Positions 3,541-33,979 of a DNA stretch of 64,000 bases are shown here, one piece after another. Numbering within the stretch: position 1 is the stretch's first letter; the number at the start of each line of letters is the position of its first letter. A program made the position numbers and the translations under genes. The stretch comes from Neocallimastix lanati (nom. inval.) (taxonomy: Eukaryota > Neocallimastigomycota > Neocallimastigomycetes > Neocallimastigales > Neocallimastigaceae). The DNA is taken from contig JACVTC010000092.1 in assembly GCA_016946835.1 (NCBI GenBank), positions 547,001-611,000 on the forward strand, written 5' to 3'. The notes under the pieces were generated by a model. It was not told where the DNA came from and did not search any database. It saw nothing but the letters and a program-made list of their open reading frames with translations.

Positions 3541-4031
3541 TGATAAATAACAAAATTAATAAATCTTGAAAATTTATTATACATAAAATCAAAACTAACC
3601 TTAGCCAAGTTTAATAATAATTTAATAAAATAAAAAAAAATTAATTAATTAATTAATTAAAACAAATAAATTACACTTAAAAATTACATTAATACTCAGA
3701 TATGAAAGAAATATTATATATTTTTCAAAATAAAAATATTAAGATTAAATTTAAAATAAAATAATTAGTTTTAATAATTAGTTTTATAATAATTTTTATA
3801 ATTAATTTTATAATTAAATAATAATTTTATAATAACAAAATTTATTAATTTAAATAACAAAATATTTTTAATTATTTTTATAATAAACAAATTTATTTAT
3901 TTTATTATTAAATATTTATTTTATTATTAATTTTATTACTTTTATTTTATTTAATTATTCTTTTTATTTATAAATTATAAATAGTTTAATTTTAAAGAAA
4001 AATATAAATACTTGTAAATATTTCATGTAAA

Positions 4032-4068
<37 letters not shown>

Positions 4069-4302
4069 TAATTTTATAATTTTAATAATCACTTTAAATT
4101 TTGTAATGTTTAATAAATTTTAATAAAAGATTTATAAAATAAAATATTAGAAAACAAGTGTTCTAATAAACCAAATTTTTAGTGTTATTTTTAATAAAAC
4201 ATTTTTAATTCATAAATAACTTATACAGTTATTATTAAAATAAATTGAAATTATCACTTTTTAATTCTATATTAAAATTAAGATAATTTCTAAAATTTAT
4301 CA
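3541..4302 (+). repeat. 3' LTR of element A
   Basis: 762 bp, bounded by TGATAAAT and ATTTATCA, an 8-bp perfect terminal inverted repeat. It begins right after the purine-containing tract that follows pol. A TATA-like sequence (AAATATAAATA, about 4002-4012) lies in the middle, in the usual promoter position. An ATT microsatellite occurs near 4036-4065. The LTR is followed by GTTG and then the next LTR. Confidence 0.88.
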
Positions 4303-4306
4303 GTTG

Positions 4307-5143
4307 TGGTAAAGAACGAACATATAATGGATTATTAATTAGAATTTCAACTTACTTTAGAATCCATTATATTATTCTTTACTTAATATTACTTTACTAT
4401 ATTTTCTATACTAAAATATTTTCTAAATATATTTTTTTATTATATTTTTATTAAAAGTTTCTAAAATATTATCAATAATTTTATATTTTTATTATTAATA
4501 TCAATATCTATAATTTAACCTCAAATTTTATTATTTTATTAAAGTGTTTATTATCAATATTAATATTTTATTTTTATTTTCAAATATATTATTATATTAT
4601 TATTATATTGTATCAATATTAAACTTGTATTCTTTTTAGTATTTTATTTTATTTTTAAATTGATTATTTTATATTTTTATTCCCCACAAATAAAATCAAA
4701 TCTTAATTGATTAATAATAAATATTAAATATATTATAGTTTTTAAATTTATTTTATATAAAATATAAGAATATTATATTAACATTCTTGATTAAAATAAC
4801 TTTATTTTTCTGTAAAATCTTTTTAAATTTTGTTTGTTACTTTTCGTATATATTAAATAATTTAGTTTTAGTATATGAAAAATAATATAAAATTATATAA
4901 ACAAAATTTATTAAAATAAAAATACTTATGAATTAGTTAATTTAAATTAATATAAAATTTTAAGTAATTAGTAATAGTAAATATTTTTTTTTAAATATGA
5001 TAATAAAATGTAGAAAGCTTTACATATTTATTTTTTTTCAAAAAGTATAAATAAGTGAAGTTTTTCAATAATTAAAATGTAGACAGAAAAATATTAAAAG
5101 TAAATAATTAAATAAAAATTCTAATAAAACCCGAACCATAACA
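4307..5143 (+). repeat. Solo LTR 1 (TGGTAAAG type)
   Basis: 837 bp starting TGGTAAAGAACG and ending GAACCATAACA, flanked on both sides by GTTG (4303-4306 and 5144-5147), a clean 4-bp target duplication. No internal region, so this is a solo LTR. Its first 75 bp form an imperfect long hairpin (GTAAAGAA at the edge pairs with TTCTTTAC near 4373-4381). A TATA-like AAGTATAAATAAG lies near 5042-5055. Termini resemble the LTR of element J. Confidence 0.82.
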
Positions 5144-5147
5144 GTTG

Positions 5148-6127
5148 TGTGTAAGAAATAATAATTATTTACTAATAAATAATTATTATTTCTTAGTCTT
5201 TATAATTATTGATAATAATTATAAATTTATTTAAATTATAATTAATTCATACATTGAGATATTATTATCAAATTTATTATAATTGTAATTATTCATACAC
5301 TTAAATAATATTAGAAAATTTATTTAAATAATTATTATATGCACACTTATTAATATTATTAATTTTATTTAGTTATTCATTTAATTATCAAGTTAATGTA
5401 AACATTAGTTTTATTTATTTTTTACATTGTACATTTAAAAGAACAATTAATAAGTTTCTGTATTTTTTATAATTCTGTATTCTAGTTTAAAGATAGTTTT
5501 ATGTTAATAAGTTTAGATTAGATTTTAAAAATAATATTTAGAAAGATAGAATAGAATAATTTAGATCATTCCGGTTATTATTGATTTTTCCTTTTATTAG
5601 ATGATCTAAATTAAAATTTAGGAAATCGATATATTAAGGTTTTATCCAAATATAAAATAATATATTTGGTTTTACTTAATATATACGATGATCGATATGA
5701 ATAGAATATCGATCAAAAAACTTATCTAGTTTTTTCTTCTAATCTTTTTCTAGATAAGATATTTTTTAAGATTAGAAAACCTTTTTATTTAACCTTATTT
5801 CCATAAAAAAATATAAATAAGGCTCTTGATTTCCCTTTAAGAAATCAAGAGTTATTATTATAAAAATATAGTTATAATAATAGCAATTTTATATTTTAAA
5901 CTTTAATAAATTAATAAAACATTTTATTCAAAAACATATTTTTTAAAACCAAATTTATATAAATATTCCTTCTTTTACATTTTGTGTTGTTATTATAATT
6001 AATTTTATAATAAACTCTCTTTTTAGGTAATATTTTTATTTTTATTTTATTTCTCAACTTAATGAATTAGTCATTAAGTTGAAGTTAATAATCATATTTA
6101 GTGATAGAACTTAGTATGATTATTACA
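5148..6127 (+). repeat. Solo LTR 2 (family of element B)
   Basis: About 980 bp, starting TGTGTAAGAAAT and ending TTATTACA like the LTRs of B. It shares with B the blocks GATCGATATG, ATCGATCAAAAAACTTATCTAG, the TATA region and the CTCTTGA...AAGAGTTATTATTATA segment, with clear divergence, so it is an older relative. The edge carries a perfect 20-bp inverted repeat (5152-5171 with 5176-5195, 4-base loop). Left flank is GTTG; on the right only TTG separates it from the next LTR. The right end is set by similarity to B and is less certain than the left. Confidence 0.72.
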
Positions 6128-6130
6128 TTG

Positions 6131-6812
6131 TGATACGGAACTAACTAATAATTCGTATTATACTATTGGAAATTATAATTAAGTTTAATAACTTTATGTA
6201 TTAAATATTTTAAACTATTTTTATAATTCCAAAATTTTATTCTTAATTTAAAATAATTATATAAATTATCAAATTAAATTGATTAATGACTAATTATTAA
6301 AAAATTATTATTTAATTAAATTGATTAATGACTAATTAATAAAAAATCATTATTTAATTAAATTGATTAATGACTAATTATTAAATAATTATTATCTTAT
6401 ATTAATTAAATTGTTTTATTATTATATTTAATTATTATTAATATTAAATTGTTTCAAGAATTATATTATCAAAAATATTACCAATAATTTTATTGTTAAA
6501 TTTTTTAATTTTATCATTAATAATATTTGTCATTAAAGATAATATTAATTATATTAGTATTAATATTTTTATTATTAAAATAACTCTTAAAAAATATTAT
6601 TTAAAATCACATGTAATAATTATACTAATAAGAATTAAAATAATTTAAATTATTATAAAAATTCATGTAGTAAAAAAGTATAAAAGAAAAAGAAAATACT
6701 TAATAAAAAAATTAGGAGTTAAAAAAAATAAAAAAAACTGGAAATTGAAATTAAATTATTAACTAATATATTATTTTCATTTTTTTTTGAAGTTTATTGT
6801 GTACCTGCACCA
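6131..6812 (+). repeat. Solo LTR 2b (TGATAC type)
   Basis: 682 bp between TGATACGG and CCTGCACCA. Preceded by ATTG/TTG and followed by GTTG (6813-6816). It contains three tandem copies of a roughly 52-bp AT-rich unit (ATTAAATTGATTAATGACTAATTA...) around 6270-6390. No coding capacity. Boundaries come from the TG/CA ends and the spacing to its neighbours, so confidence is moderate. Confidence 0.6.
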
Positions 6813-6816
6813 GTTG

Positions 6817-7536
6817 TGATACAAGATGAAAAGAAAAATAATGATACTTTAAAATTATTATTAAATTATATTAATTATATAAAGTTTGTAAAATATATAT
6901 TATTATAAAATTAATTATATAAAAATGATGAATTATATTAATTATAAATCATATAAAATAATATTATTATAGTATAAAATTTAATTATTATAATATAAAC
7001 TTTTATATTAATGTTTATATAAAATATAATAATTATGATTTAATATAGAGATAATAATTATAAAAAAAAATATATAAAAATATTATTAAAAAAAAAAAAA
7101 AAAACTTGTTATAAATTATTGATATATGTTAATTAGTAATAGTTGATTTAATGTTAATAAATTATTGATATATGTTAATTAGTAATAGTTGATTTAATAT
7201 AAGAAAAATGTTTTAATTAGTTAAGATAGTAGTTTAGTTATTAGTTTTAATAAAATTAGTTGTTTAAGTAATTAATTGTAGAATATTATAATTAAATTAT
7301 AATTATTAATAGTTAATTAATATGATAAAAATAAAAATAAAAATAAAATAAAATAAAATAAAATAAAATAAAATAAAATAAAAATAAAATATTACAAAAC
7401 AAATATCCTAAAATAAAAATTTTAAATAATTAAATAAAATAATTAATATTATTATTAGAATATATAATTTAATACAATTCCCCAGTGTAGCGCCCAAAAC
7501 TATTGTAAATACGAATATTTAAAATATATCGTATCA
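6817..7536 (+). repeat. Solo LTR 3 (TGATAC type)
   Basis: 720 bp between TGATACAAG and TCGTATCA, a 6-bp terminal inverted repeat (TGATAC/GTATCA), flanked by GTTG on both sides (6813-6816, 7537-7540). It includes an internal duplication of about 50 bp (AAATTATTGATATATGTTAATTAG, near 7112-7200), an A run and an (AAAAT)n tract near 7326-7386. The end segment with ATTCCCCAGTGTAGCG resembles the sequence close to the right edge of the window. Confidence 0.75.
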
Positions 7537-7540
7537 GTTG

Positions 7541-8541
7541 TGTGTAAGAATCTATAATTATTTTTAACAAAATAATTATATTTTCTTAGTTAGGTTATAA
7601 TTAATATAACTTTTATTTAACTCATATTTCATTTATACAATTAATTATAATTAATAATGTATTTAATTATATATTAAAATTTTATTTAGTTTAATATTAA
7701 AAATTTATTTAATCAAATAATTTTTATACATTTAAAATAATATTAAATTTATTTAATTATTCACTTAATTATTAAATTTATTAGTTTTAGTTTTCTCTCA
7801 CTTATTAAATCATAAACTAAAACACTATTCTGTATTTTATCATGTATTCTGTATTCTATCATGTATTCTGTATTGTATTAATCATGTATTTTATTATTAA
7901 TGTATTGTTTTATATTTTTTATGTAAAGTTCTATAAAATAGAACTAAATAGATTAAATTTTAAATTTTATGATCGAAATAATTTTCATTATTTTATTCTT
8001 TTATTTTCGATCATTATATTAGATTAAGTAATCGGTTAATTAAGGTTTTTCCAATTACTTCTTAAAAGTAATCGGTTTTACTTAATTAACGCGACGATCG
8101 ATATGGATAGAATATCGATCAAAAAACTTATCTAGGTTTTTCTTCTAGTCTTTTCCTAGATAAGAGATTTGTTAAGATTAGAACCCCTTTTGATTTTAAC
8201 CTTATTTTGACAAAAAAGTATAAATAAGGCTCTTGAGTTCTCTTTGAGAAATCAAGAGTTATTATTATAACAATTATAATATAATAATAATAACAATAAG
8301 TTTTAACATTTAAAATTTTTAATAAATAATAAAACAAATTATTTTAATAAAACAAATTTTATAATTAAAACTTTTCCTTATCAATTTTAGTGTTTCGTCT
8401 ATTATAATTCGTTATAATAAACTCGATAATTAGAAAGAACCATAGGTAAGTATGATTCTTTTCTAAACCTTTAATATTAGCAGTTAGAGCTAATATTAAT
8501 GATTAATAATTTAATTATAAATTTTTAATTAAATTATTACA
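7541..8541 (+). repeat. 5' LTR of element B
   Basis: Starts TG(TG)TAAGAATC and ends AAATTATTACA. The first 50 bp form a hairpin (TATAATTATTTT pairing with AAAATAATTATA). The body has the TATA box at 8219 and a second hairpin, CTCTTGA...TCAAGAG, directly before the self-primer. A strong splice-donor-like ATAGGTAAGTATG occurs near 8451. The short reading frames that cross the LTR are AT-rich noise. Confidence 0.92.
8219..8265 (+). promoter_or_regulatory. TATA box and self-primer segment of element B
   Basis: TATAAATA (8219-8226) is followed about 28-35 bases later by AAGAGTTATTAT (8254-8265). This 12-mer is the exact reverse complement of the 12 bases just after the LTR (8542-8553). A transcript starting near 8250 would carry it at its 5' end, as in fission yeast Tf1, where the first bases of the mRNA anneal to the primer site. 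The position after the TATA box is seen; transcription start is inferred. Confidence 0.75.
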
Positions 8542-8553
8542 ATAATAACTCTT
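8542..8553 (+). other. Self-priming primer-binding site of element B
   Basis: ATAATAACTCTT directly follows the 5' LTR and pairs perfectly with 8254-8265. No TGG, the complement of tRNA CCA, is present at this spot, whereas the lineage 2 elements here have TGGTGGAGA at the equivalent position. Confidence 0.78.
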
Positions 8554-8924
8554 CTTAGTATAGTTTAATAGAATAGTTAATTAATTTAATAATATAATTA
8601 ATTTCTAGAATCAAGTAGTACAAAATAATTTAGTGTAGTACAATAAAAATTTTTATGATTAATAATAAATAAAATAATATAAATTATATAGAATAATCTA
8701 GAAATTAAAAAAATAAATTAATATATAGTAAATAAATTAAATATTAAAATATAAGTAGATAATATTAGTAAATCAGATCAAAAATCATCAATTAATAATT
8801 TAGTATAGAAATTATAAGAATAAATTAATATAAACCATAAATTAAATATTAAAAAATAAGTAAATAGTAATAATTAGTTGGATAAATAATTAAAATCATA
8901 AAAATTTAAAAGAATAGATATATA

Positions 8925-9192
8925 GTAATAAATAATAATAAATAATAATAAATAATAATAAATAATAATAAATAATAATAAATAATAATAAATAATACTA
9001 AATAATACTAAATAATAATAAATAATAATAAATAATAAATAATAATAAATAATAATAAATAATAATAAATAATAAATAATAATAAATAATAATAAATAAT
9101 AAATAATAATAAATAATAATAAATAATAATAAATAATAATAAATAATAATAGTAAATAATAAATGATAAATGATAAATGATAAATGATAAAT
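8925..9192 (+). repeat. AAT/AATA microsatellite in the leader of B
   Basis: About 270 bp of AATAATAATA and AATAATAAAT repeats ending in several AAATGAT units. It lies inside the untranslated leader between the LTR and gag, so it was probably carried or expanded after insertion. No coding role; the reading frames through it are repetitive Tyr/Ile strings. Confidence 0.9.
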
Positions 9193-9377
9193 AATAAAAA
9201 AAATTAAACAACAATAAATAGCAATAATAAAATAAATAATAACAATAATAAGAACACATAAATACACTAACATATGTTTACATGATTTTAGGGAAATAGA
9301 ACTGGAAGAAGTAGGCCAAGGAAACAATATAGAAGAACCAAGACTTAGTACAGACCTTAGAAGCAGAAGTGTGTTAG

Positions 9378-9600
9378 CATCTAGGTAACAGTTTCCGGAT
9401 TAAGTTTATCTGTCACAGGCAGCGATCTGGGCAGCTCTGGACTGGCCTATCCGATGTGTGGTAGGTTGCAATCGTGGTGTACGCGGGAACATGACACCAG
9501 TAATAGGCAAGCTGCTCCCGTCATTAAGTACATACTACTGTTTACTGCTAACGTGCTTCTGGAAAATCGTCTGGAAATGCTTGAGTATTTTCTTATTCAA
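9378..9600 (+). other. GC-rich leader RNA domain of element B
   Basis: A sharp island of balanced composition in an AT-rich leader, about 100-300 bases before gag. It contains TTTCCGGATTAAGTTTATC (9392-9410), CTCTGGACTG (9435-9444), ATGACACC (9491-9498), TAATAGGCAAGCTG and CTGGAAATGCT. The first three recur in the leader of element F and the last three, in similar form, in J. Shared sequence in the leaders of different lineages suggests a cis-acting RNA (packaging, translation or splicing). The function is not known to me. Confidence 0.7.
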
Positions 9601-9698
9601 CTGTTTTCTTTCGCCAAAACTTCCTAACTATGACCTTATAATCATAATAAACATATATATATATTTCATAGTTAATATAATTTATAATTTATGTAAAA

Positions 9699-12600
9699 AT
9701 GGAATCCAATAGTAATAACGCCCAAATTCCAAGTGAAGTTGAATCCTCAAAGCTTATAACAGCTTTAACAGAATTTATTCCTACCTTCTTTTCCGCCAAC
9801 GGAGTGTTATCCAAAGACTTAGCTGATAACAACAAACTTAACGTTAATGAGCTCCTGGAACAGAGTGAATTGTTTTTTAAAAAACATCCCAACTCTTTTT
9901 CCACGGACGACTTAAAAATTTCTTATGTTATCAGCATGTTACATGGACCTCCAAAGAAATGGGGACTTTCATTGAAGGCTGATGGGACTTTAAATTCGTT
10001 AAGCTATGACACCTTTAAAGATATTTTGATAAGCAATTTTGGGGATACTAAAGAACAGAAGGATGTTCTTATTGAACAACTTCTAAACTTAAAACAACTT
10101 CATTTAGGAAGAGCCGCATTATATACTATTGAATTTCGAAGGTTAGCTGGACGTATTGGATGGCCGGACGATGTATTCATTGACCTAATCAAAAGAGGTC
10201 TTCTTGAGGATGTTAAAACAGAGTTCAATAAATTAGACAAACCTAAAAGTTTATTTGAGGCAACAAATTCTATTATCAATATTGATAGAAAATGTTTACT
10301 TAAGCAAAAAGTTAAGACCAATGACTACAAGCCAAAGAGTAGTAAATCTTTCAAACGAAAAAGAAACGAAACTAACATGACCGAAAACAAATTTAAACGC
10401 AATAAGCACCATAAGGGACGAGACAATGGAAGTATTTTATCAGCAAATTACACCCCAAGTCATAATAATAAAATGACTACAACTTTCTTGTTAACCGTTA
10501 ATAACAAAAAGATTAAAACCAGAATCCTTATTGACTCGGGCTCTGCTAGAAGTTATCTCTGCAAAAGCTTCGTAACAGCAAACAAAATTCCTTATTCAAA
10601 CCTCTCAAATACGATCAATGTAAAACTTCCTAATGAAAAGAATATGGCTATAAAACAAGTTACAAAACGTCTTAAGCTTACTTTCATGGACCATACGGAA
10701 ACATTTGAATTCTTTATAGCCAATTTACAACTTCAAGATGTATCTGCAATCCTTGGAAGAGATTGGTTAAGCCTTCATTCACCTTACATTGATTACAAAA
10801 ATAATAAAATTTACTTCTTGGAAAGCTACTGTAAAAACCATTGCCCTTCTGCTAAGGGTAATAGGTTTGTTTTCCATTCATCAGATATTACTGCTTCTCT
10901 CTTACCCAATAATGAACAGAAGGAAGAAATTCCTCTTGACTCAATAATTCCAGATTCCATACCTGAAGACGAACTTAGCGATATGAACATTTGCGCTGCT
11001 TTAGTTCACAATAGTAAAATTAAGAATACCAAAAGAAATAAAAAAATAATTAAAAAATATTATTATGACCTTTGTATTGTATTTGAAAAGAAAGAAGCTG
11101 ATAAACTCCCTCCACACCGTGTTTATGATATATCCATTGATTTAGTTCCCGGTGCTCAACTTTATTTTGGACCAATTTATTCGTTGACTGTTGAAGAAAA
11201 GAAGGCACTTCGTGAATACATTAAGGAAAACCTTGCTAAAGGATTCATTAGAAAATCAAAATCTCCTGCTGGTGCCCCGGTGCTATTTGTTAGAAAACGT
11301 GACGGTTCTCTTAGACTTTGTGTTGACTATAGAAAGCTCAATTCTATCACCATTAGAAACAGTTATCCAATTCCTAGGATATCTGATTTGATAGAATCAT
11401 TTAAAGGTGCTATTATTTTCTCTCGGCTTGACTTAAGATCTGCCTATAACTTAGTTCGTGTCAAGAAAGGCCATGAATACCTTACTGCTTTTCGTACTCC
11501 TTTTGGTCATTTTGAATACCGTGTAATGCCTTTTGGTTTACGTAATGCACCTTCGGTTTTTCAACGCTTTATCCAAGACATTTTTTCTGATGATATTGGC
11601 TTGTTTCTCTTTGTCTACTTAGATGACATTATAATATATTCGAAAAACCTTACTGAACATATTAAACATGTTCATCATGTCCTTTCCTTGTTAGTCAAAA
11701 ATGGTCTCTATGTAAAACTAGAAAAATGTGAATTTCACATTCCTGAAACTACTTTTTTAGGGTTTGTTGTATCAATAAATGGCCTTTCTATGGATAAAAA
11801 CAAAGTAAAATCAATTCTTGAATGGCCTACTCCAAAAAACATGAATGAACTTCAAAGTTTCCTCGGACTCTGTAACTACTATAGGAAATTCATAAAGAAT
11901 TTCGCCATAATTATGGAACCCTTAAGAATACTCCTCAAGAAGAATAACGAGTTCAAATGGAATGATGATGCTGAGAATGCCTTCAAAAAATTAAAACTTG
12001 CTTTTACCACAGACGAAATCCTTATCTACCCCGATCCAGATAAGGAATTCACTGTTGAAACTATGCCAGTGATTTTGCTGTGGGTTGCATTCTTTCTCAA
12101 ATCAGTGACAAGGATAACGAACTTCACCCTGTCGCTTTTCATTCTAGGTCTTTGTCATCTTCTGAATTAAATTATACAATATATGACAAGGAACTACTCG
12201 CTATTATCACCGCTTTTGAAACCTGGCGTCACCACCTTGAAGGGGCTAAGTTTCCTGTTCAAATCATTACCGATCACAGGAATTTATTATATTTTAAAAA
12301 GCCTCAACATTTAAACCAACGCCAGATAAGATGGAGCCTCTTTCTTTCTAAGTTTGACTTTAGGATTTCGTTCAGACCTGGATCAAGGAGTAGTGAACCA
12401 GATTCGTCGTCGAGACGTCCGGATTATAATTCCGTGGTTTCCCTCCACAACAAAGACCGTCCTTTATTGGATGATAATGCCTTATGTTGTGCAAACACTG
12501 ATAATATTAGTAGTTTGATTGATGCCCAAACAGCTGACACATATTGCAAATCTATTTTAGAAAAGATTAAAACTAAGTCAAACACAGTTAAAAGTTCTTT

Positions 12601-13732
12601 ATTTTCTTTAAATGAAGGGGTCTTACATTTCCAAAACAGAATCATCGTCCCATCCACTTTAAGAGCAAGAATTTTGAAATCTTTTCATGACTCACCCACC
12701 AACGGACACCAAGGTATTGACAAAACTCTTGATAAAATCAAGAGATACTACTGGTGGCCTAATATGAAGAAAGATATTCATAATTATGTACTTTCTTGTT
12801 CAACTTGTGCTAGGTGTAAAATTCGTAGACATAAACCCTACGGAAAAATTCAACCGTTGCCTGTTCCCAATAAACCATGGGAAATTATTGGGGTTGATTT
12901 TATAGTTTCGTTACCTAGTTCACAAGATTGCACATGTATTATGGTGGTTTCGGATCACTTAACAAAGATGATCCATTTAGTTCCTTGCTCCGACGTCCCT
13001 TCCGCTGACCTGACCGCCAAGATGCTCCTTTACAACGTTTTTCGGTATCATGGATTCCCTAAAATCATTGTCTCTGATCATGGCTCCCAGTTCTCTTCTG
13101 AATTTTGGACCTCACTCTGCTCAGCTCTAAATACTAAGCCAAGACTCGCTACTGCTCATCACCAACAAACAAATGGTCAAGTCGAAAGGGCTAATTCCGT
13201 AATCGAACAATATTTACGATGCTACTGTTCTACTGCCCAAAATGAATGGTGCTTTTATCTACCTCTTTGTGAAATGGCTTATAACAACTCATTTCACAAA
13301 TCTATAAACATGTCGCCTTTCTGTGCAAATTATGGTTTTAATCCAGTATGCAATATTGACTCTCCTCCTGTTCTTTTAAAATATAATGCCTCTGTACTTA
13401 CTAGGGATTGGTCTGCCCATTTTGATGCCCTTAAAAAGCACCTTATCAAAGCTAAAGAAGATTTCAAAAAGTTTGGTGACTCTAGGAAAGCTTCTGGTCC
13501 TACTTTCCATGTTAACGACATGGTTTGGTTGAAAAGGTATTACTTCTCCAATGAACCTGCAAAAAAGCTTTCTAACCAGTATCTTGGACCCTTTAAGGTC
13601 ATAGAAGTGAGGGAAAGAATGAACTACCGGATTGAATTACCAGAAAATCTTCATTTACACCCGGTATTTCATATCTCGCAGTTGGAGCCTTATACTGAAA
13701 GAGACATAGGATTAAAGGAACCATCACCATAA
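9699..13732 (+). pseudogene. gag-pol: Gag-Pol coding region of element B (nearly whole)
   Basis: Starts at ATG 9699 (MESNSNNAQIPSEVESS). Gag covers roughly the first 240 residues and ends in a basic stretch (KSFKRKRNE) without a CCHC knuckle. Aspartic protease has LIDSGS near 10530. Reverse transcriptase has the chromoviral wording LDLRSAYNLVRV and YLDD near 11617. RNase H follows. Integrase has the zinc finger HDSPTNGHQGIDKT...CSTCARC (12690-12820), then VDFIVS, SDHGSQF and HHQQTNGQVER, and a GPF module, ending HPVFHISQLEPY. Gag and pol are in one reading unit, as in Tf1. The region carries about one break and is otherwise open. The short tail after LEPY leaves no room for a chromodomain. 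Confidence 0.88.
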
Positions 13733-13741
13733 AGGGAGCAA

Positions 13742-14740
13742 TGTAAGAATCTATAATTATTTTTAACAAAATAATTATATTTTCTTAGTTAGGTTATAAT
13801 TAATATAACTTTTATTTAACTCATATTTCATTTATACAATTAATTATAATTAATAATGTATTTAATTATATATTAAAATTTTATTTAGTTTAATATTAAA
13901 AATTTATTTAATCAAATAATTTTTATACATTTAAAATAATATTAAATTTATTTAATTATTCACTTAATTATTAAATTTATTAGTTTTAGTTTTCTCTCAC
14001 TTATTAAATCATAAACTAAAACACTATTCTGTATTTTATCATGTATTCTGTATTCTATCATGTATTCTGTATTGTATTAATCATGTATTTTATTATTAAT
14101 GTATTGTTTTATATTTTTTATGTAAAGTTCTATAAAATAGAACTAAATAGATTAAATTTTAAATTTTATGATCGAAATAATTTTCATTATTTTATTCTTT
14201 TATTTTCGATCATTATATTAGATTAAGTAATCGGTTAATTAAGGTTTTTCCAATTACTTCTTAAAAGTAATCGGTTTTACTTAATTAACGCGACGATCGA
14301 TATGGATAGAATATCGATCAAAAAACTTATCTAGGTTTTTCTTCTAGTCTTTTCCTAGATAAGAGATTTGTTAAGATTAGAACCCCTTTTGATTTTAACC
14401 TTATTTTGACAAAAAAGTATAAATAAGGCTCTTGAGTTCTCTTTGAGAAATCAAGAGTTATTATTATAACAATTATAATATAATAATAATAACAATAAGT
14501 TTTAACATTTAAAATTTTTAATAAATAATAAAACAAATTATTTTAATAAAATAAATTTTATAATTAAAACTTTTCCTTATCAATTTTAGTGTTTCGTCTA
14601 TTATAATTCGTTATAATAAACTCGATAATTAGAAAGAACCATAGGTAAGTATGATTCTTTTCTAAACCTTTAATATTAGCAGTTAGAGCTAATATTAATG
14701 ATTAATAATTTAATTATAATATTTTAATTAAATTATTACA
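13742..14740 (+). repeat. 3' LTR of element B
   Basis: 999 bp, preceded by the polypurine tract AAAGGGAGCAA and nearly identical to the 5' LTR at a constant offset of 6199 bases. Ends TTATTACA and is followed by GGTG. Confidence 0.93.
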
Positions 14741-14744
14741 GGTG

Positions 14745-14891
14745 TGTTAGAAATTGAAATAAAAATTCTTTTATATCAATTTCTATTCTACAATTTTATA
14801 TTAATAATATTATTATTAACTAAAATTGAGAAATTTAAATTTGTTTTATTAAAATAAATCGAGTTTATTATAAGAAAATTTAAATAAATTT

Positions 14892-14931
<40 letters not shown>

Positions 14932-15639
14932 AAATAATAAATAAAATTTATTTTAAGATTAAAAAAGAATAAATTTGTTGTTATTAATTTATAAAATTTT
15001 ATTGTTATTATTATTTTTCTTATAATAATAACTCTTAATTTCTAAAGGAACTTAAGAGTCTCTATTTATACTTTTTCAAAATTTTAAATTAAATATTGTC
15101 TAATCTTAACAAATTTCTTATTTAGGAAAAGATTAGAAGAAAAACCTAAATAAGTTTCGATTAATATTCTAAACATATTAATCATCGGATCATTAAGTAA
15201 AACCGATACCAATCAGTATTCGGGAAAACCTTAAAGATCGATTTTCTAATTATTTTTATAATAAATAATTTTAATTAAATGTCCAAAATAATAAATAAAA
15301 AAAAATTAAAAATTGAAAAAATTTGTCCAAATTTAGAAAAAATTTTTTGTTATGAAAAAATTTAAATAATTTTTGATTATGTCTAAACATTTAAATAATA
15401 ATTATAACGAATAAATATTAACTAATATTAATAAAATTTTTAATTATTAAGTTTAACTAATAATTGGTTAACTACTCCTAATTTTTAAATAATTTTACAT
15501 GTAATAGTTATAGTACATTGTTACAAAATAAATAATGATAATGTAAAAATAATGTATTTCTAATTATTAAGTATTTAATATATTAATACATAATAAGAAA
15601 TAATAATTAAAATTTAAAAATTTATTATTATTTCTTACA
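14745..15639 (-). repeat. Inverted solo LTR M (B-like family)
   Basis: Read on the minus strand it starts TGTAAGAAATAATAAT and ends TTTCTAACA. The core matches B-type LTRs in reverse: ACCGAT...TTAAGTAAAACC, the AAGAAAAACCTAAATAAG block, and GACTCTTAAG...CTTAAGAGT..TTATTATAAG. A T run lies near 14889-14924. Four bases (GGTG) separate it from B. It is older than B judging by divergence. No internal sequence, so a solo LTR. Confidence 0.68.
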
Positions 15640-15642: not shown

Positions 15643-16652
15643 TGGTAAAGAATGAATTAATAACCTTTATTTTATTATTAATAATTCTTTACTAAATTGT
15701 ACTTTCCTATATTCTTGATAACCTAAACTTAATAATAAAATTTAATTTATTTTGATATAAATTAATTTTAACTTGTAAATAATGTAAATAAATTTTAATT
15801 AATTACTTTATTGTTATATTATTAAAAATATGTATATTAAAATACAATTGTAAATATTAAAATTATACTTTTAAAATACTAAATTATTAAAAACTATTAA
15901 TTAAATATTATTATAAAAATTATTATAAAATTATTAAAATTATTAATTAAATATTATTATAAAAATTATTATAAATTATTAATATTATAAAATTATTAAA
16001 ATTATTAAATATTATTATAAAAATTTATTTATTATAACTATTAAATATTATTATAAAATTATTAAGATTATTAATTAAATTTATTATTAAAAATTATTAT
16101 TAAAAATTATTACTTATTATAAAAATTATTATTTAAATATTATCAAATTTATTAATTAAATATTATAAAAATTTTATTTTATTTTGAAAATAATTACAAG
16201 TATTATTTAAAATAATTAAAGATTATTAAATTTATTATATTAATCTTTAAAAACAATTTATTTAACTTAAAAATATCAAAGAAAATAGTAAAAACTATTT
16301 TCTATATATTTATTTTATAATTATTTTTAATTAAATTATATTTGAATATTATATTATTATATTTATAAAAATTAAAACAAAAATGAATTATTGATATAAA
16401 ATTAATTCAATAATTCTATAAAATTACTTAAATTATAAACAAATAATTATACCTTAAATTCAAAAAAAATTATAAATATTGTAAATATTTCTTAAAAATT
16501 AAATATGTGTACTTTAAATAATAAAATTTTATATTAATAAATAATAAACACTTTTAATAAAAAAAAAATTTTCTTTGTTAAAATCAAAGCAGGGTAATAC
16601 CCGTCCCCCCCTGCTTGATTTTAAATCAATAAGAATCACCCCGAGTCTACCA
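15643..16652 (+). repeat. LTR L, left copy
   Basis: 1010 bp from TGGTAAAGAATG to GAGTCTACCA. A near-identical copy (a dozen or so differences) lies at 30407-31415 in the same direction. The first 50 bp form a hairpin (GTAAAGAAT with ATTCTTTAC, 15645-15692). Just before the 3' end is a strong hairpin, AAAATCAAAGCAGGG (16580-16594) with CCCTGC TTGATTTT (16609-16622). TATA-like AATTATAAATATTG lies near 16467. The flanks ATGG (left) and ATGT (right of the other copy) differ by one base, so the two may be the ends of one element that later received C/D and E, or two separate solo LTRs. Confidence 0.78.
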
Positions 16653-23854: not shown

Positions 23855-24293
23855 TAATAAATCTTGGTTATAAATAGATTTTTATTTTATTATTTGATTA
23901 TATAGAAATTGTTTTATATACTTTATAAATATATATAAGTATATAAATCTTTATTAATTTATTGATTCATTTATTATTAAAAATTTATTTTATTCAAAAG
24001 AGAGAGATTAAAAATATTTTTTTTTAAATTATTATTTTTATATTCTAAAATTGGTGTAACAACAATATCCAATCAGTAATAATAATAAAATAATAATTAT
24101 AATTTTATAATAAAATATTCTTTAGAAATAATAGTAAAGTATTAAGAATTATTAATAATTTATATATAATACTAATAAAATAATCTATTATTATTTATAT
24201 CATAAATTTTATAATAAAATTAAAAATATTTTATATATATAAATATATATATATATTTTTAATAAATAACGTAATTATAGTTATTATTTATCA
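23855..24293 (-). repeat. 3' LTR of element E
   Basis: On the minus strand starts TGATAAATAATAAC and ends GATTTATTA. The edge contains ATAAATAATAAC facing GTTATTTAT. Next to it on the inner side is the polypurine tract CTTAGGGCGAGAAATCT. An A/T-only spacer with a T run (24349-24371) separates it from pol. Confidence 0.9.
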
Positions 24294-24347
24294 AGATTTC
24301 TCGCCCTAAGATAAAATTTTATCTGAATAATTAATATAAATAATAAC

Positions 24348-24378
<31 letters not shown>

Positions 24379-24387
24379 TTAAAACGA

Positions 24388-27300
24388 TTATATTGAAGCT
24401 AAGTAGGGTTTAACATTCTTAACATGGACGTTTCTTTCTAGTATTTTGTGAGTATCTATTGTTTCTAAAACAAGTGTGTTAAATTTAGAAGCCTTAATTA
24501 CTTTAAATGGTCCAATGAAAAATGGATGTAATTTCTTTCTTCCAATGTAGCGAACTAAAACTAAGTCACCAGGTTTATAGGTATGGTTCATACTATCAAC
24601 TGCTTTGCTTCTTTGAAGCCAGTAAGAATGAGCTTGCTTTATGTTTTCCACGGCTTCTTTTACCCATTTTTGGTGACGAATGAATCTTCTTAAATTATAT
24701 TCATCATCTGATTCATTTTTATTTTTGGCAATGTCAGGAATAACAACACTCAATGGCCATAGATCTTTCCTACCATATAGGAGTTCAAAACTACTGAAAC
24801 CGGTTACGCTAGACCTAGAAGTCCGAAGTGCCCATAGGGAAGCTGGAATATATTCATCCCAATTTGCTTGATAAAGACAGAGATGTCTTAATATTTTAAT
24901 GATTTCTCTGTTCCTGTTCTCGACCTGTCCATTAGCTTCTGGATGGTGAGGAGCAACAAACTGAATCCACGATCCATATAAATCAACCATTGTTTTAGTG
25001 ACATCCGACGAGAACTGCGTGCCATTATCTGTTATTATTAGTTCCGGCATACCATGTCTTGCAAAAACATCTTTAAGAAAGCTAATTACATCTTGACTTT
25101 CTATTTTCTTTAAAGGTGATGCCTCTACCCATTTAGTAGTGTAATCTACAAGTACGATTAAGTATTGATTTCCTTTATCTGTAATCGGTAGAGGACCTAC
25201 AATATCAAGGCCTACTCTAACGAATGGTCTTTCAACAGGAGTGGGAATATTCGAAAGGTTTTTACTTATAGGCTTCGGACGATAACATTGGCAACGTAAG
25301 CATGTTTTAACATGCTTATTTACATCGTTTCTCATGCCTGGCCAGTAGTACGCTTCTTTTAGTCTTTTGAATGTTTTCTCGGCACCTTCATGGCCCACAA
25401 GATGAGCCTTACGAATTAAAGAGGATTTAGTAGAATCGTCCTCTATCACTTTTAAAAATTTACCATTTTTGTCTTGAAAAACAAGTTGCCCATTATATAA
25501 AGAATAATTATTTTTAACATATTCAATGATTTGGGGAGGAGCGAAGGAAGAGGTGTCATCGCTATCGGTAAGGATAGACTTAATAGAACTAATACGCGAA
25601 GGTAAACGAGACAGAGCATCTGCAAAAACGTTATTTTTACCTTTTTCATAAATTAAATTAACTCTAAACTCATTAAAAATTGAAATCCACCTAAAATGAC
25701 GGTCTTTGCTGGGAATACTATTATAGAAAAAACCAACCAAAGGTTTGTGGTCAGTATAAATATTGACTGGAAAAGGAGAAGCGGCTATATAAGAACGAAA
25801 CTTCTTTAAAGCAAAGATAACCGCAATACCTTCTTTTTCGGTGACAGAGCAGCGGGTTTCAGCATCTTTTAAACAACGGCTTACACAATAAATGAGAAAT
25901 TCTATGTTAGATTCGTCTTGGACTTGTAACAAAACAGCACCAACAGCGTAAGAGGATGCATCAGTCCGTATGATCAGTGGGCGGTGTGGATCTGGGTATT
26001 TCAAGACCGAATTTGAACAAATGACATTTTTAAGATTGTTAAAGGCGTCAGTATGGATGTTTGTCCAGTGAAATGGCTTTTTTGGACTAGTAAGTTTATA
26101 TAAGCAGTTAGAGATACCTGCAAAATTTGGGATAAACTTCCGGTAATAGCTGATAAGGCCCAGAAAGGAACGAAGTTGAGTAACGTCTTTAGGAGTATTC
26201 CACGAGGCTATTGCAAGAACTTTAGAGGCCATAGGCTTAATGCCCTCTCTGGTGAGCATGTGGCCAAGAACTTCAACTGAACCTTTACAGAACGAACACT
26301 TTTCGAGGTTAATAGAAAATTTATTATCTCTCAAAATGATAAATAATTTTTCTAAGTCTTGGAGATGCTGTTCGAATGTCGGAGAATAGACGAGAATGTC
26401 ATCCATATATACGAAAAGACAAAAACCTATTAGTGGCATAAGAATACGATTCATCTCCCGTTGGAAGGTAGCAGGAGCATTAGTGAGTCCAAATGGCATT
26501 ACTAAGAAATTGAAATTTCCAAACTTTGTCGTAAATGCCGTTTTTTCAACATCTTTTGGGTTCATTGGAATTTGATGGAACCCTGAGAATAGATCAATAG
26601 CAGAGAAAAACCTAGCTCCGTGGACCGATTCCAAAAGTTCATCAATGAAGGGGAGAGCGTATGCATCTTTTATAGTAATTTGGTTAAGTCGACGGTAGTC
26701 GACACACATACGCCATTTACCATTTTTTTTGCGTACAAGTATGACTGGGAACGACCAAGGTGAATGTGACGGTTCAATTAATCCATGGTTTAATAACTTA
26801 ATAATTTCATCTTTGAGGGCCTTGGATTGTTCCAGTGAGATTTTGTAGGGTCTTAATTTGATCGGTTTTTCATTGGTAAGTTCTATTGTATGTGGTTCAG
26901 CTTTAGCAATGGATGCATCATCAATAGAATTTATAAGTACATCTTTATATTTGTCAATAAGATTATTAAGTTTTATGTTATCAATATCACTAAGTTCAAT
27001 ACCACCATCAGGAAGTTCAGAATAAGCGGGGAATTCATCTGGATTACTATAAATAGAGATTCTAAATAATCTATTTGATGTAGTGATATCGGTTGGATGC
27101 GCTACGAGTACTGGGTTGGTGTCGGTTTTCATATACAGGGCATCATCGTCTGGATCGACGAACAAACGATAATCTTTGTGAACCTGGCGACCTATGATAA
27201 TATCATAAAAAGGGTCGTCGTCATCCAATATATAGAAGGGGGCATTAATGACAAGATTTTCAAATTTTAAGCATAAATTAATAACTTGATTAGTGGAGGT

Positions 27301-28116
27301 CATATTCTTTCCAGGGACTTTAAAGTAGTTTCTTTCAAGAATGTGGACTTTATGATTTTTAGCAATTAATTCAAAAAAAGGCTTGTTAATGATGTTTACT
27401 TCTGCTCCTGTATCTACTAATACTTTCACGACATGTTTATCAATGGAACCAATCACAGCGGCGATATTTGCTTTATTTATTAGATTTATTCTTTTTGTGC
27501 TAAGGTCGTTTAAATTGGATTCAACTACTTTTTCACTTACAGGAGTAGTACTTTTGTAATCAGTGTTAATATTTTTAAAAACGTTTATAAGAAAATCGGA
27601 GTCATTTTCGTCTAGATTTGTATGGTGAACGGAATTGATTTTTCTAATATCTTTAGGGTTTAATTTTAAACCCTTAATGCATAAACGTCTTAATAGAGGA
27701 CTTACGGCAAATAGCTGAGCAAAGGTTATTCCGGCATTCGAATTGTTTAGGGCTTCAAAGAGGTCATATTCCTTCTTGTCATCTAACATAAGAATAGTTC
27801 TGAGGAAGTCATAATAATTTTTCTTTGTAGCGTTGTCGTTGATTTCCGTGTCTGGAACGTCTATTTCAACCTCCTCATTCTTATTAGTAGAATCCAGACC
27901 TATTCTTCTCTTATTTCTTTCTTCTTTATTCTTTTTCTTGGCTGAAGAAATATTTTTCCCGGCAATAACAGAAGTGTTTAAAATTTCTAATTTATTGGAG
28001 TTGTTCTTATGAAGAATTTTACCATTTTGGTTCCGTTGATACACTTCTTGATCTGATTTTTCTTGTTGAGCTTTCAGTTGAGTAGCTTTGGTATTTATAG
28101 GAGTAGCATTTTCCAT
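24388..28116 (-). CDS. pol: Element E Pol polyprotein
   Basis: 1242 residues, open. After a Lys/Asn/Glu-rich N-terminus (about 1-110) comes the lineage motif ITFAQLFAVSPLLRRLC (about 128-145). Protease has canonical DTGAEVNII near 236. Reverse transcriptase spans about 430-650 with YMDD near 573. RNase H begins RTDASSYAVG near 720. Integrase: zinc finger HLVGHEGAEKT...CLRCQC (about 905-950), GLDIVGP near 972, TDNGTQF near 1030, QVENRNRE near 1060, then a GPF module ending NVKPYLASI. No chromodomain. The -1 frame is open from the gag end into this frame and includes GIKRKH, matching IKRK in F and H, so the Met is probably not the real start. Confidence 0.93.
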   Translation of the reverse strand: MENATPINTKATQLKAQQEKSDQEVYQRNQNGKILHKNNSNKLEILNTSVIAGKNISSAKKKNKEERNKRRIGLDSTNKNEEVEIDVPDTEINDNATKKNYYDFLRTILMLDDKKEYDLFEALNNSNAGITFAQLFAVSPLLRRLCIKGLKLNPKDIRKINSVHHTNLDENDSDFLINVFKNINTDYKSTTPVSEKVVESNLNDLSTKRINLINKANIAAVIGSIDKHVVKVLVDTGAEVNIINKPFFELIAKNHKVHILERNYFKVPGKNMTSTNQVINLCLKFENLVINAPFYILDDDDPFYDIIIGRQVHKDYRLFVDPDDDALYMKTDTNPVLVAHPTDITTSNRLFRISIYSNPDEFPAYSELPDGGIELSDIDNIKLNNLIDKYKDVLINSIDDASIAKAEPHTIELTNEKPIKLRPYKISLEQSKALKDEIIKLLNHGLIEPSHSPWSFPVILVRKKNGKWRMCVDYRRLNQITIKDAYALPFIDELLESVHGARFFSAIDLFSGFHQIPMNPKDVEKTAFTTKFGNFNFLVMPFGLTNAPATFQREMNRILMPLIGFCLFVYMDDILVYSPTFEQHLQDLEKLFIILRDNKFSINLEKCSFCKGSVEVLGHMLTREGIKPMASKVLAIASWNTPKDVTQLRSFLGLISYYRKFIPNFAGISNCLYKLTSPKKPFHWTNIHTDAFNNLKNVICSNSVLKYPDPHRPLIIRTDASSYAVGAVLLQVQDESNIEFLIYCVSRCLKDAETRCSVTEKEGIAVIFALKKFRSYIAASPFPVNIYTDHKPLVGFFYNSIPSKDRHFRWISIFNEFRVNLIYEKGKNNVFADALSRLPSRISSIKSILTDSDDTSSFAPPQIIEYVKNNYSLYNGQLVFQDKNGKFLKVIEDDSTKSSLIRKAHLVGHEGAEKTFKRLKEAYYWPGMRNDVNKHVKTCLRCQCYRPKPISKNLSNIPTPVERPFVRVGLDIVGPLPITDKGNQYLIVLVDYTTKWVEASPLKKIESQDVISFLKDVFARHGMPELIITDNGTQFSSDVTKTMVDLYGSWIQFVAPHHPEANGQVENRNREIIKILRHLCLYQANWDEYIPASLWALRTSRSSVTGFSSFELLYGRKDLWPLSVVIPDIAKNKNESDDEYNLRRFIRHQKWVKEAVENIKQAHSYWLQRSKAVDSMNHTYKPGDLVLVRYIGRKKLHPFFIGPFKVIKASKFNTLVLETIDTHKILERNVHVKNVKPYLASI

Positions 28117-28437
28117 AAGTCTCTTTTTGGAAAAAGTATATTCATTTTTGTTTATTTTGTTAGTATCAGAGTGTTTTCGTTTGATACCGTATAAAAGATT
28201 ATTATTATCTTGGATGCTGGTTGAATTTACTAAATCTTCATGTGGGGAATTGTAATTATTTGATTTTTCTTCGGATTCGTCTGTAGATGATGTGGTATCA
28301 GACTCAGGGGCCTCTGGATAATTATGGTAATGGTTAACTTTGGATTTTTCACCGTGATGATATGCAGTTGCCTTATGATTATTATGTTCGTTTTTGTTTC
28401 TATATTCAAAAGCGCTATCAATTTTGTTTATACGTCT

Positions 28438-28470
28438 GGAAGATTGAGAACTTCCCTTTATTAATTTAAA
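28438..28470 (-). promoter_or_regulatory. -1 recoding signal at the gag-pol junction of E
   Basis: On the minus strand, slippery U UUA AAU (28464-28470) encodes the end of gag (His-Leu-Asn) directly before the stop, followed after a few bases by a 5-bp hairpin, GGAAG/CTTCC (28451-28455 with 28438-28442). Same order as in F, H and J, which also end gag in Leu-Asn. Confidence 0.72.
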
Positions 28471-29315
28471 TGCTTTTGATATTGGATTATTGTAGCTATT
28501 GCTTTGTTCAGATCGGACATTTCATTAGGGCAAAATCTTTCTTCATGTCCCTTTTCATGACATCTATGGCAAACGTGGATCTTCATTTCAGCGAAGCTTT
28601 TGGTCAAAGCTTATAGATCGGATTCTTGAATATCCTTATCTATTTTCTTTCGATCTTTCTCAACTTTATTGAATTTATCTTCTGATAAGTTATTCTGTTT
28701 CCTTCTGTTGAAGCTTCTTCTTTTAGGTATTCTGTTAAATTGTGTACTATCGTATTCATCATCGCTTACATAAGGTTCAATAGTTTCTTCGACCTTCAAT
28801 GCAATATCGTATGCATCTTTTAATGATTTTGGTTGCTTGGTCAATAGCGCGTTAAAAACAGGGGTTCTCTTCTTACAAGCTTTTTTATATAAGAATATCA
28901 ACCTTTCTTCATTTGGCTTGTCTCTTTCGGATATTTCTAATAATAGTTCTTTAAATATTTTATTAAACTCTTTAACGGAGTATTTACTAATTTTTAAAGC
29001 TTCGAGTTTATGTAAATTAGCGTTAGATATTTTGCTATTACTGAATGGTTCCCCTATTTTTGAAATAAAATCGGAGAGTGATAGGTCTTTATTTTCGTAA
29101 TATATATCAATACTACGATCTTTAGTTTTGCCATAGGTAGCTAGTATCACGATTTTCTTTTTTTCTTTTTCTGAAAGAGATAAATCTTCGAAGATATCTT
29201 CTACTTCCATCTTCCACCGAAAGAATTTAGTATCTCTTCTTCCTAGAGCGGCAATTTCTTTAGCCATGAGAGTGGCTTTTTCATAATCATTTTCTTTTAT
29301 TTTATTTGAAGACAT
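28461..29315 (-). pseudogene. gag: Gag region of element E (about one break)
   Basis: Starts at MSSNKIKENDYEK, about 85 bases after the primer site; an upstream in-frame Met lies inside the primer site and is unlikely to be used. The capsid-like domain follows (FFRWKMEVEDIFEDL, KISKYSVKEFNKIFKELL, SLKDAYDIALKVEE). A CCHC knuckle, CHRCHEKGHEERFC, is encoded near 28535-28580, and the region ends in His-Leu-Asn before the stop. It differs in sequence from the Gag of F, H and J. The region carries about one break. Confidence 0.78.
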
Positions 29316-29383
29316 AAAATAAAACGGTAGATAATTTAAGAATATGGGGAATTGTGTGTTATATAAAGTAGGCTTTCCGGGGT

Positions 29384-29401
29384 AAGAGTGGTTCTCCACC
29401 A
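29384..29401 (-). other. tRNA-type primer-binding site of E
   Basis: TGGTGGAGAACCACTC on the minus strand, three bases inside the 5' LTR. TGG pairs with tRNA CCA. It shares TGGTGGAGA with F, H, J and K but then differs, so the primer tRNA may not be the same. Confidence 0.7.
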
Positions 29402-29403
29402 CT

Positions 29404-29841
29404 TAATAAATCTTGGTTATAAATAGATTTTTATTTTATTATTTCATTATATAGAAATTGTTTTATATACTTTATAAATATATATAAGTATATAAATCTT
29501 TATTAATTTATTGATTCATTTATTATTAAAAATTTATTTTATTCAAAAGAGAGAGATTAAAAATATTTTTTTTAAATTATTATTTTTATATTCTAAAATT
29601 GGTGTAACAACAATATCCAATCAGTAATAATAATAAAATAATAATTATAATTTTATAATAAAATATTCTTTAGAAATAATAGTAAAGTATTAAGAATTAT
29701 TAATAATTTATATATAATACTAATAAAATAATCTATTATTATTTATATCATAAATTTTATAATAAAATTAAAAATATTTTATATATATAAATATATATAT
29801 ATATTTTTAATAAATAACGTAATTATAGTTATTATTTATCA
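29404..29841 (-). repeat. 5' LTR of element E
   Basis: 438 bp, matching 23855-24293 with about one substitution and one run-length difference. Followed on the plus strand by TTGG. Confidence 0.9.
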
Positions 29842-31981: not shown

Positions 31982-32656
31982 TGATAAATAACCAAATTAT
32001 AAATTAAGAAAAATCAATAAAATGGAATAATAACCCTCTTCATTAGTTATTGATAATTATAAAATAATATTTTAATAAAAATAAATTAAAAGATTTAAAA
32101 TTATTAAATAAATATTATTTTAATTTAAAGAACAATGTATTTTATATTAAATTATTCTTTTATTTTACTTTAACGATTTTAAATTAAATCTCAGTTTAAA
32201 TTGATATTAATATTAATTAAAAAGAAACTTATTAATAATAACAAAATTGTTTATTTTATCTTAAAAGTGTTTACTTAAAATAATTATATAGTTTTATTTT
32301 AAATAATTTAAACTTAAAAGAAAAATATAAAAACATGTAAATATTTCTTTAAAAATAAAAAAATCAGAATTCAAGAATTAAAAATTTAAAATTTAAGTTT
32401 TAATAAATTATTTTCTTTTATTCTCATTTATTTTAAATACTTTTTATTAAGAATATAAATATTCAAAATAATAAAAAGTACAATTTTATATTGATAAATA
32501 AAGTTTTATTATAAAAAAAAAACAAATATTCTTTTCTTAGTTTAAACTTTAGTGTTTTAATTAACATTTTTGTGTTAATAACTACCTTTTTAATTGGCAC
32601 ATTATTATCACTTTTAGAAGTAAATTCTAAATTAAGATAATAATCAACATTTGTCA
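31982..32656 (+). repeat. Solo LTR, A-like (TGATAAAT type)
   Basis: 675 bp from TGATAAATAACC to AACATTTGTCA with AAGT on both sides (31978-31981, 32657-32660). Resembles the LTR of A at its start and in its TATA region (AAATATAAAAACATGTAAATATTT near 32324). No internal sequence. Confidence 0.75.
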
Positions 32657-32660: not shown

Positions 32661-32912
32661 TGCTAAAGAATAAAATAAAAATATGATAAACTTAATTATT
32701 TTCAAATAATTAAGTAAAATATTACTTTATTTAATTTTTAGATTTTTAACCTTAATAAACTTTTCAATTAAACTTTTTAATAATTAAATTAATATTAATT
32801 AAAATAAAATAAATTATTAATTGTTTATTCTTAATATTTTAAAAAAAAAAAAAAAATAATAATAATAAAACAATAAAATAAAATTATTATTATTATTCCC
32901 TGAACCTTACCA
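32661..32912 (+). repeat. 5' LTR of element H
   Basis: TGCTAAAGAATA to GAACCTTACCA, 252 bp, much shorter than the other LTRs here. Contains a perfect 12-bp hairpin, ACTTAATTATTT with AAATAATTAAGT, near the left edge (about 32691-32718). No clear TATA box of the type seen in the other LTRs. Confidence 0.88.
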
Positions 32913-32917
32913 TAATT

Positions 32918-32935
32918 TGGTGGAGATATCGGGGA
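32918..32935 (+). other. tRNA-type primer-binding site of H
   Basis: TGGTGGAGATATCGGGGA, five bases after the LTR. The identical 18-mer is found in F (minus, 40426-40443) and J (53943-53960). As a tRNA 3' end it would give an acceptor strand TATCTCC, discriminator A and CCA. I do not assign the tRNA. Confidence 0.82.
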
Positions 32936-33115
32936 TAATAATAATAATAATAATAATAGTAATAATAATAAAAGTATATATTATTTTTATTAAATTATAT
33001 TAAAAGAAAAATTAATTTTGAAGAAAAGAATTTCTTAAAATTACAAAAACTAATTTCTACCGTGTTTGTTATTACTACCTCTGGATTTTATAATTTTAAA
33101 ACTACCGGAACAATA

Positions 33116-33955: not shown

Positions 33956-33979
33956 ATAATGGGAGAAGAAGCACTCCCA
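33946..33979 (+). promoter_or_regulatory. -1 recoding signal at the gag-pol junction of H
   Basis: Slippery U UUA AAU (33946-33952) precedes the gag stop; after a spacer comes the hairpin TGGGAG (33960-33965) / CTCCCA (33974-33979) with an AAGAAGCA loop. The -1 frame then reads on into pol and includes INAIKRKAEDEN, like IKRKANPKDEE in F, until the G insertion. Confidence 0.8.

Follow-up and report, generated by a model that had tools for sequence, protein, structure and literature searches.

An end-to-end stack of Ty3-like LTR retrotransposons upstream of a tRNA gene in Neocallimastix lanati

In a 64,000-nucleotide stretch of the Neocallimastix lanati genome (GenBank assembly GCA_016946835.1, contig JACVTC010000092.1, positions 547,001 to 611,000 of the forward strand; hereafter the window) unlike long terminal repeats (LTRs) stand end to end at 4302-7543, with GTTG as the spacer at four of the five junctions and TTG at the fifth. 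Here we show that this row belongs to a chain with a tRNA-Ser(CGA) gene at its left end, that stepwise removal of its elements uncovers matching target duplications, and that LTRs at other tRNA genes lie at a fixed distance from the gene, mostly with matching flanks. Very probably, the stretch belongs to a stack of Ty3-like LTR retrotransposons that is anchored at a tRNA and arose by repeated insertion at one gene. A preliminary description of the junctions is partly supported: its interpretation was right in part, the proposed re-copying of a target duplication being borne out and the proposed targeting of LTR borders fitting less well than targeting of tRNA genes.

The junction row and its probable anchor at tRNA-Ser(CGA)

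Direct reading confirmed that the junction row exists. The sequence CAGTTGTG occurs four times on the plus strand of the window (4301, 5142, 6811 and 7535), each time at an LTR junction, and is absent from the other strand of the window; the fifth junction reads ACA-TTG-TG (6125-6132), with the TTG that had been given as '(A)TTG'. LTR borders were taken from LTR pairs in the full elements A and B and from TG...CA ends for the other LTRs. The ends originally assigned stand except in one family, formed by the second solo LTR of the row (L2) and element B, in which the LTR starts with TGTAAG, as B's own 3' LTR does, rather than with TGTGTAAG. Since this family combines a TGTAAG start with a 5-bp duplication, TTGTG, both the extra TG and the 3-bp junction are explained. 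The borders of L2b, placed from a single copy, are less firm, and L3 likewise was placed from a single copy.

The chain extends 19.5 kb leftward beyond the window, as far as a point 18 bp upstream of tRNA-Ser(CGA). On the contig holding the window (C755; C and L numbers denote contigs and sequence stretches retrieved around individual loci, respectively) a 294-kb tile was read, C755:427001-721000, of which 17.5 kb is N; ARAGORN found no other tRNA in it. In the left part of the chain the 5' LTR of A abuts element Z, of the LTR1 family, Z abuts X and X abuts E0, whose 5' LTR starts at the 18-bp position. Elements were removed stepwise outward from tRNA-Ser(CGA) and the flanking bases were compared at each step, a procedure we call peeling. 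Perfect duplications of 4-5 bp, 15-18 bp from the tRNA, were found for eight of the nine elements (Table 1), which bears out the earlier proposal that each newcomer copies the target duplication again. For two places drawn at random from the 84-kb LTR block, the probability of sharing at least four flank bases is 0.011, as against eight of nine observed, the nine tests not being independent because the copied bases are identical. At three junctions the newcomer sits 1-2 bp inside the older LTR end. For the location of the LTR families only matches scoring over 150 bits against a 13-LTR library drawn from the block were counted, as a search with LTR pieces against the tile by BLAST gave many low-complexity matches. 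Among the matches listed, those counted fall only in C755:527553-611805, on the 5' side of tRNA-Ser(CGA); outside the block, matches to piece Q reach about 206 bits and are read as low complexity, and the tile there holds other LTR-like repeat pairs of different sequence.

According to the mechanism that we propose, several families would share one fixed integration site, about 14-18 bp upstream of the 5' end of the mature tRNA, each integration making a 4- or 5-bp target duplication. Because the gene stays intact and its distance to those bases is unchanged, the next element would enter at that very position, inserting itself between the previous element and the gene and producing a further copy of the duplication. 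Repetition would yield a row of LTR ends with one short spacer and would leave the most recent insertion adjacent to the tRNA gene, a time order that we infer. Some layers would shrink to solo LTRs, presumably by recombination. The position of the insertions suggests that TFIIIB may recruit the elements, as in yeast Ty3. By analogy, and with distances taken from mature tRNA 5' ends, the behaviour would be Ty3-type targeting of RNA polymerase III (Pol III) start sites.

Table 1. Features of the chain and of the outer layers. Positions are those of the window unless prefixed C755; distances are from tRNA-Ser(CGA) after peeling.
Feature	Position	Strand	Duplication or flanks	Distance (bp)	Remarks
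tRNA-Ser(CGA) gene	C755:527453-527534	-
E0			TGTTG	18	perfect
X			TTGT	16	perfect; ends at CGTATCA, per LTR pair and CA rule
Z			TTGT	16	perfect
Element A, whole	C755:544157 (outside window) to window 4302	+	GTTG	15	perfect
3' LTR of A (TGATAAATAAC...TTATCA)	3541..4302	+			LTR pair identical over 762 aligned bases
Spacer GTTG	4303..4306				right duplication copy of A and left flank of LTR1 solo
Solo LTR, family LTR1 (TGGTAAAG...CCATAACA)	4307..5143	+	GTTG	15	perfect; 97-98% to LTRs of element Z, C755:536530-544153
GTTG + TG	5144..5149				GTTG, LTR1 duplication; TTGTG (5145-5149), left L2 duplication copy
Solo LTR L2, B family (TGTAAG...ATTATTACA)	5150..6127	+	TTGTG	17	perfect; 72% to B LTR; borders by analogy with B's LTR pair
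TTGTG	6128..6132				right L2 duplication copy; final TG is first TG of next LTR
Solo LTR L2b (TGATACGG...TGCACCA)	6131..6812	+	GTTG	15	perfect; TG..CA ends, flanks match after peeling
Spacer GTTG	6813..6816
Solo LTR L3 (TGATACAAG...CGTATCA)	6817..7536	+	GTTG	15	perfect; TG..CA ends, flanks match after peeling
GTTG + TG	7537..7542				left flank of B
Full element B	7543..14740	+		17	one mismatch over six bases; LTRs 7543-8541 and 13742-14740, 3 substitutions in 999
B pol open reading frames (ORFs)	9699-12170 and 12080-13732
Older solo LTR M (TGTTAGAA...TTTCTTACA)	14745..15639	+	right flank TGG/TGGTG		probable next layer outward, from its ends
LTR E1a (TGGTAAAG...CTACCA)	15643..16652	+			second copy 30407-31415, 98%
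TTGG after E1a	16653-16656				then B-like LTR start
DG-family LTR	23041-23850				directly before element n
Full element n	23855..29841	-	TTGG both sides (23851-23854, 29842-29845)
A-like LTR	31982..32656	+	AAGT both sides		second chain begins
Element K	32661..52086	+	AAGT both sides		nested element g inside (chromodomain)
Element F	34224-41241		TAAA		by eye inside 5' LTR of g (nest window 34224-48009)
F-family LTR	52091..52876	+	between AAGT and AGTT (52877-52880)
Ty3/gypsy material, LTR-like start (TGGTAAAG) and LTR-like end	52881..63349	+	then AGTT, or AAGTT should that LTR end in CA		possibly several elements
LTR L3p (TGATACGATACC...)	63354..64000, on to C755:611013	+			next come AGTT and a further F-family LTR

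Several features of individual layers may be recorded here. Element Z is without about 2.1 kb of interior that is found in other LTR1 copies, including four tRNA-adjacent ones, and its 5' LTR carries near its start an insertion 99% like an LTR beside a tRNA-Arg gene (L038), with a like 5' arrangement in L099 and L100. No TGG primer-binding site follows the E0 5' LTR (C755:528397, TTGCCTCTC...), nor is there one in the E0-like copy on C383 (L082), so that priming of E0 may be unusual. Several LTR starts (window 5150-5200, 7543-7600 and others) show, by eye, an inverted repeat immediately internal to the terminal TG.

Other tRNA genes and LTR1 junctions

tRNA places were picked without regard to their flanks, 20 of 63 from one list and 20 of 40 from another, mostly one per contig. 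ARAGORN found a tRNA in 39 of the 40 retrieved (none in L057), nearly all Arg, Asn or Ser, and removal of eight near-identical flanks left 31 non-redundant loci. At 22 of these 31 a known LTR start lies in a narrow window upstream of the mature tRNA 5' end, the distance being 14-17 bp in 21 cases and 21 bp in the remaining one. Twelve of the 22 calls rest on start motifs from C755 and ten on motifs first noticed in these same flanks, among which the TGATAAGAATG and TAATAAAG families were later found in the C755 block too. The nine loci with no known LTR start are L032, L034, L048, L049, L059, L060, L062, L063 and L065.

Far ends of the LTR were sought at 11 tRNA-adjacent copies, together with longer stretches at two, and the LTR end was reached in nine of the 13 (it does not fall within L076, L077, L078 or L080). 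A primer-site-like TGG/TGA...GGAGA follows the LTR in eight of the nine, the exception being the E0-like L082; the gene-proximal element is therefore a 5' LTR that leads into an interior, which is what the newest layer should look like. Both flanks were read for 11 tRNA-adjacent elements, and nine have identical, locus-specific bases on the two sides: CAAA on C423, AAAA on C98, TTTT on C268, GTTG on C389, ATTG on C235, TGTTG for E0 on C755, AAAA in L098, TTAA in L107 and ATTT in L112. The flanks disagree in L103 and L111. An apparent LTR start directly follows E0 and the elements on C423, C98, C268, C389 and C235, and was traced further on C389 and C755; on C98 the first base of the following LTR differs from the family start.

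The 14-mer that ends LTR1 occurs 343 times genome-wide. It is followed by a primer-binding site in 95 cases and by NNNN-TG in 110, compared with about 11 expected from base composition among the other 248, the counts being somewhat inflated because some contigs are near-duplicates. A narrower search allowing spacers of 3-6 bp gave 43 junctions, 35 of them with a 4-bp spacer, and its reversed control gave none. Spacers vary by locus, with 37 kinds among the 100 junctions listed (hand count) and TTTT the commonest. From the matches listed, 20 LTR1 elements with the right end abutting NNNN-TG were paired by eye, so that this set was picked by junction and not by tRNA, and their left ends were sought. 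Nineteen stretches were obtained, one of them all N; 13 could be scored, with the LTR start found by script in 12 and by eye in L112 (unscored: L099, L100, L108, L113, L114 and L115). The Rfam tRNA search covered 16 of the 19 loci. Of the 13 left ends, five are 12-15 bp away from an Rfam tRNA and six are separated by 3-4 bp from the end of another LTR (L104 by CA alone).

Two other arrangements of tRNA genes were seen. On C188, C251, C304, C94, C353 and C252 a tRNA-Ser gene recurs mostly every ~11 kb, perhaps inside a long repeat unit; the two copies read (L059 and L061) are tRNA-Val(AAC)/tRNA-Ser(AGA) pairs, with no LTR upstream in either. C555:170732-399007 is a tRNA array of about 30 genes of equal score in one direction, in part ~540 bp apart.

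Alternative explanations and points against tRNA targeting

The preliminary description had proposed that the CA-NNNN-TG borders of earlier LTRs are themselves the target. Recognition of these borders by the integrase, perhaps following a first insertion at a tRNA gene, is the alternative that survives best, although we judge it improbable. Border recognition would also produce repeated spacers; it suits the TTGG and AAGT/AGTT chains, which have no adjacent tRNA, and the six of 13 scorable LTR1 elements with LTRs on both sides. However, it does not predict a distance of 14-17 bp to a tRNA gene at 21 separate loci. Newcomers at three junctions had gone in 1-2 bp within the end of an older LTR. 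The gene-proximal element is a 5' LTR with interior in eight of nine stretches, as for a newest layer, and element F lies inside the DNA of another element, off any border. Recognition of borders is thus needless, and a poorer fit than targeting of tRNA genes.

That the row is an assembly artefact, or a product of segmental copying or of recombination between LTRs, is very unlikely. The region is indeed repeat-rich and of low complexity, with 17.5 kb of the tile N, yet LTRs of unlike families alternate in it and a like architecture with other spacers is found at further tRNA genes on other contigs. Recombination between unlike LTRs, which had been argued earlier to leave no common spacer, would yield no duplications matching layer by layer. 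A strong preference of the integrases for GTTG-like sequence is extremely unlikely. GTTG does occur again at C389, C52 and C57 besides this chain, but the variety of spacers contradicts such a preference, with 37 kinds among the 100 junctions listed and CAAA, AAAA, TTTT and ATTG at other tRNA genes.

Several observations weigh against repeated insertion at tRNA genes. Among the 31 tRNA loci four are without any LTR-like start and five more (L032, L034, L048, L049 and L060) have only an unassigned TG at a fitting position. At the tRNA-adjacent elements whose far end was read, an older LTR-like start or a TG was already present, and by themselves these cases do not distinguish targeting of the tRNA from targeting of the border. 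In the LTR1 test the 4-bp flanks agree in eight of 13 (the misses are L097, L103, L105, L110 and L111); Rfam matched nothing to the left of L106 and L109, both of which show an A-box-like sequence by eye. Within the stack, the flanks of B, GTTGTG on the left and GGTGTG on the right, are one base apart, and those of E1a differ, ATGG versus TTGG. With increasing distance from the tRNA, LTR divergence shows only a weak upward trend (Spearman 0.65, n = 7, p = 0.11). Element F, of a family found in the chains, is inserted at a site with no tRNA or LTR border beside it. Finally, neither a tRNA nor another Rfam RNA was found beside the TTGG chain (16653-29845) or the AAGT/AGTT chain (from 31978), and at the latter a lax-threshold Rfam search on both sides, which returned weak unrelated families only, and a B-box search gave no Pol III gene. 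Between the row and these chains, the duplication of M, TGGTG, was read by hand; the scripted peeling step fails there, with B's right flank standing in for M's left.

Repeated insertion at tRNA-Ser(CGA) nevertheless remains the explanation that we favour for the junction row. A wider reading, which we hold tentatively and with more doubt than confidence, would take the whole 84-kb LTR block as one stratified record, in which layer order would be insertion order, the spacers AAGT/AGTT, TTGG, GGTG and GTTG/TTGT/TGTTG, in this order, would track base changes at the start site over time, and integrases lacking a chromodomain would reach Ty3-like precision through another contact. Such stacks would allow the insertions of many retrotransposon families to be put in relative order with no need for a molecular clock, and their spacers may preserve older versions of the start region of the tRNA gene. 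They would also represent local genome swelling without damage to the target gene, strong LTR-family matches in the tile lying only 5' of the lone tRNA found.

Element proteins and comparison with known systems

All eight pol frames scanned against Pfam are Ty3/gypsy. RVT_1, RT_RNaseH, Integrase_H2C2 and rve follow in this order in the frames of A, DG, n, F and g and in that at 56363-59818, and in B the same order is spread over two ORFs. With reverse transcriptase and RNase H ahead of integrase, and LTR pairs in the full elements, these are Ty3/gypsy (Metaviridae) elements on the evidence of the eight frames scanned. The closest relative of the A polyprotein by sequence in the PDB is yeast Ty3 (7q5b). 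Named pol relatives are 'Orpsp1_1' at 44-49%, which we take to be Orpinomyces, a gut fungus, and further down Cordylochernes scorpioides and Nannochloris. Together with a G+C content of 25%, these relatives point, indirectly, to an anaerobic gut fungus as the host. Among the families, only E0 and the B/L2 family duplicate 5 bp of target; the duplication is 4 bp long in A, LTR1, X, L2b, L3, F, n and K.

The frames of A, DG, n, F and B gave no Chromo match and end 183-194 residues past the rve match, and element g, nested in K, has a chromodomain match. A model of the A integrase (predicted local distance difference test score 74, predicted template-modelling score 0.42) ends about 16 residues past the last strand; in a Foldseek search with it, foamy-virus integrase came first and Ty3 at rank 10, with low whole-length template-modelling scores. 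Hardly any residues seem to be left for a chromodomain in these five frames, and it should be noted that the Ty3 chromodomain was itself overlooked until the structure was solved (PMC8632968; this and the papers below are cited from excerpts). As a chromodomain is absent from the five frames, the targeting contact may be different although the behaviour is Ty3-like, which raises the question of which part of the integrase suffices to find a Pol III start site.

Targeting of Pol III start sites is already known, as is stacking at one target (PMC5006619; PMC3706591); searches of open-access papers turned up no account of extended stacks of several families in which the duplication is re-copied, nor of gut-fungal elements that target tRNA genes. 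Like the stack elements, Ty3 of Saccharomyces cerevisiae is a Ty3/gypsy LTR retrotransposon that inserts just upstream of Pol III start sites, where its chromodomain binds Brf1 and serves as a ruler (PMC8632968). It differs in its duplication, which is 5 bp whereas most stack families have 4 bp (E0 and the B/L2 family 5), and in an integrase with a chromodomain behind the C-terminal domain, soon after which the frames of A, B, DG, n and F end. Tj1 of Schizosaccharomyces japonicus is likewise a Ty3/gypsy element found upstream of tRNA genes, with 13 of 17 sequenced inserts at most 12 bp upstream; unlike the stack elements it lies nearer to the gene, with a 5-bp duplication and in one orientation, and the excerpts describe no stacks (PMC4600332).

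DGLT-A of dictyostelids, likened here in behaviour only, is a Ty3/gypsy element without a chromodomain that in D. discoideum lies 13-33 bp (mean 15) upstream of tRNA genes (PMC5006619); there too the targeting contact may be different from that of Ty3. DGLT-A is of low copy number, and end-to-end stacks with repeated spacers are not described in the excerpts, but a table footnote states that later tRNA-specific insertions at one gene displace earlier ones (PMC5006619). The Dada-U1 elements of zebrafish are DNA transposons inside small nuclear RNA (snRNA) genes and, in the excerpts, form pairs instead of long stacks; as in the stack described here, two families stand in tandem at an identical U1 snRNA site with the target duplication between them (PMC3706591).

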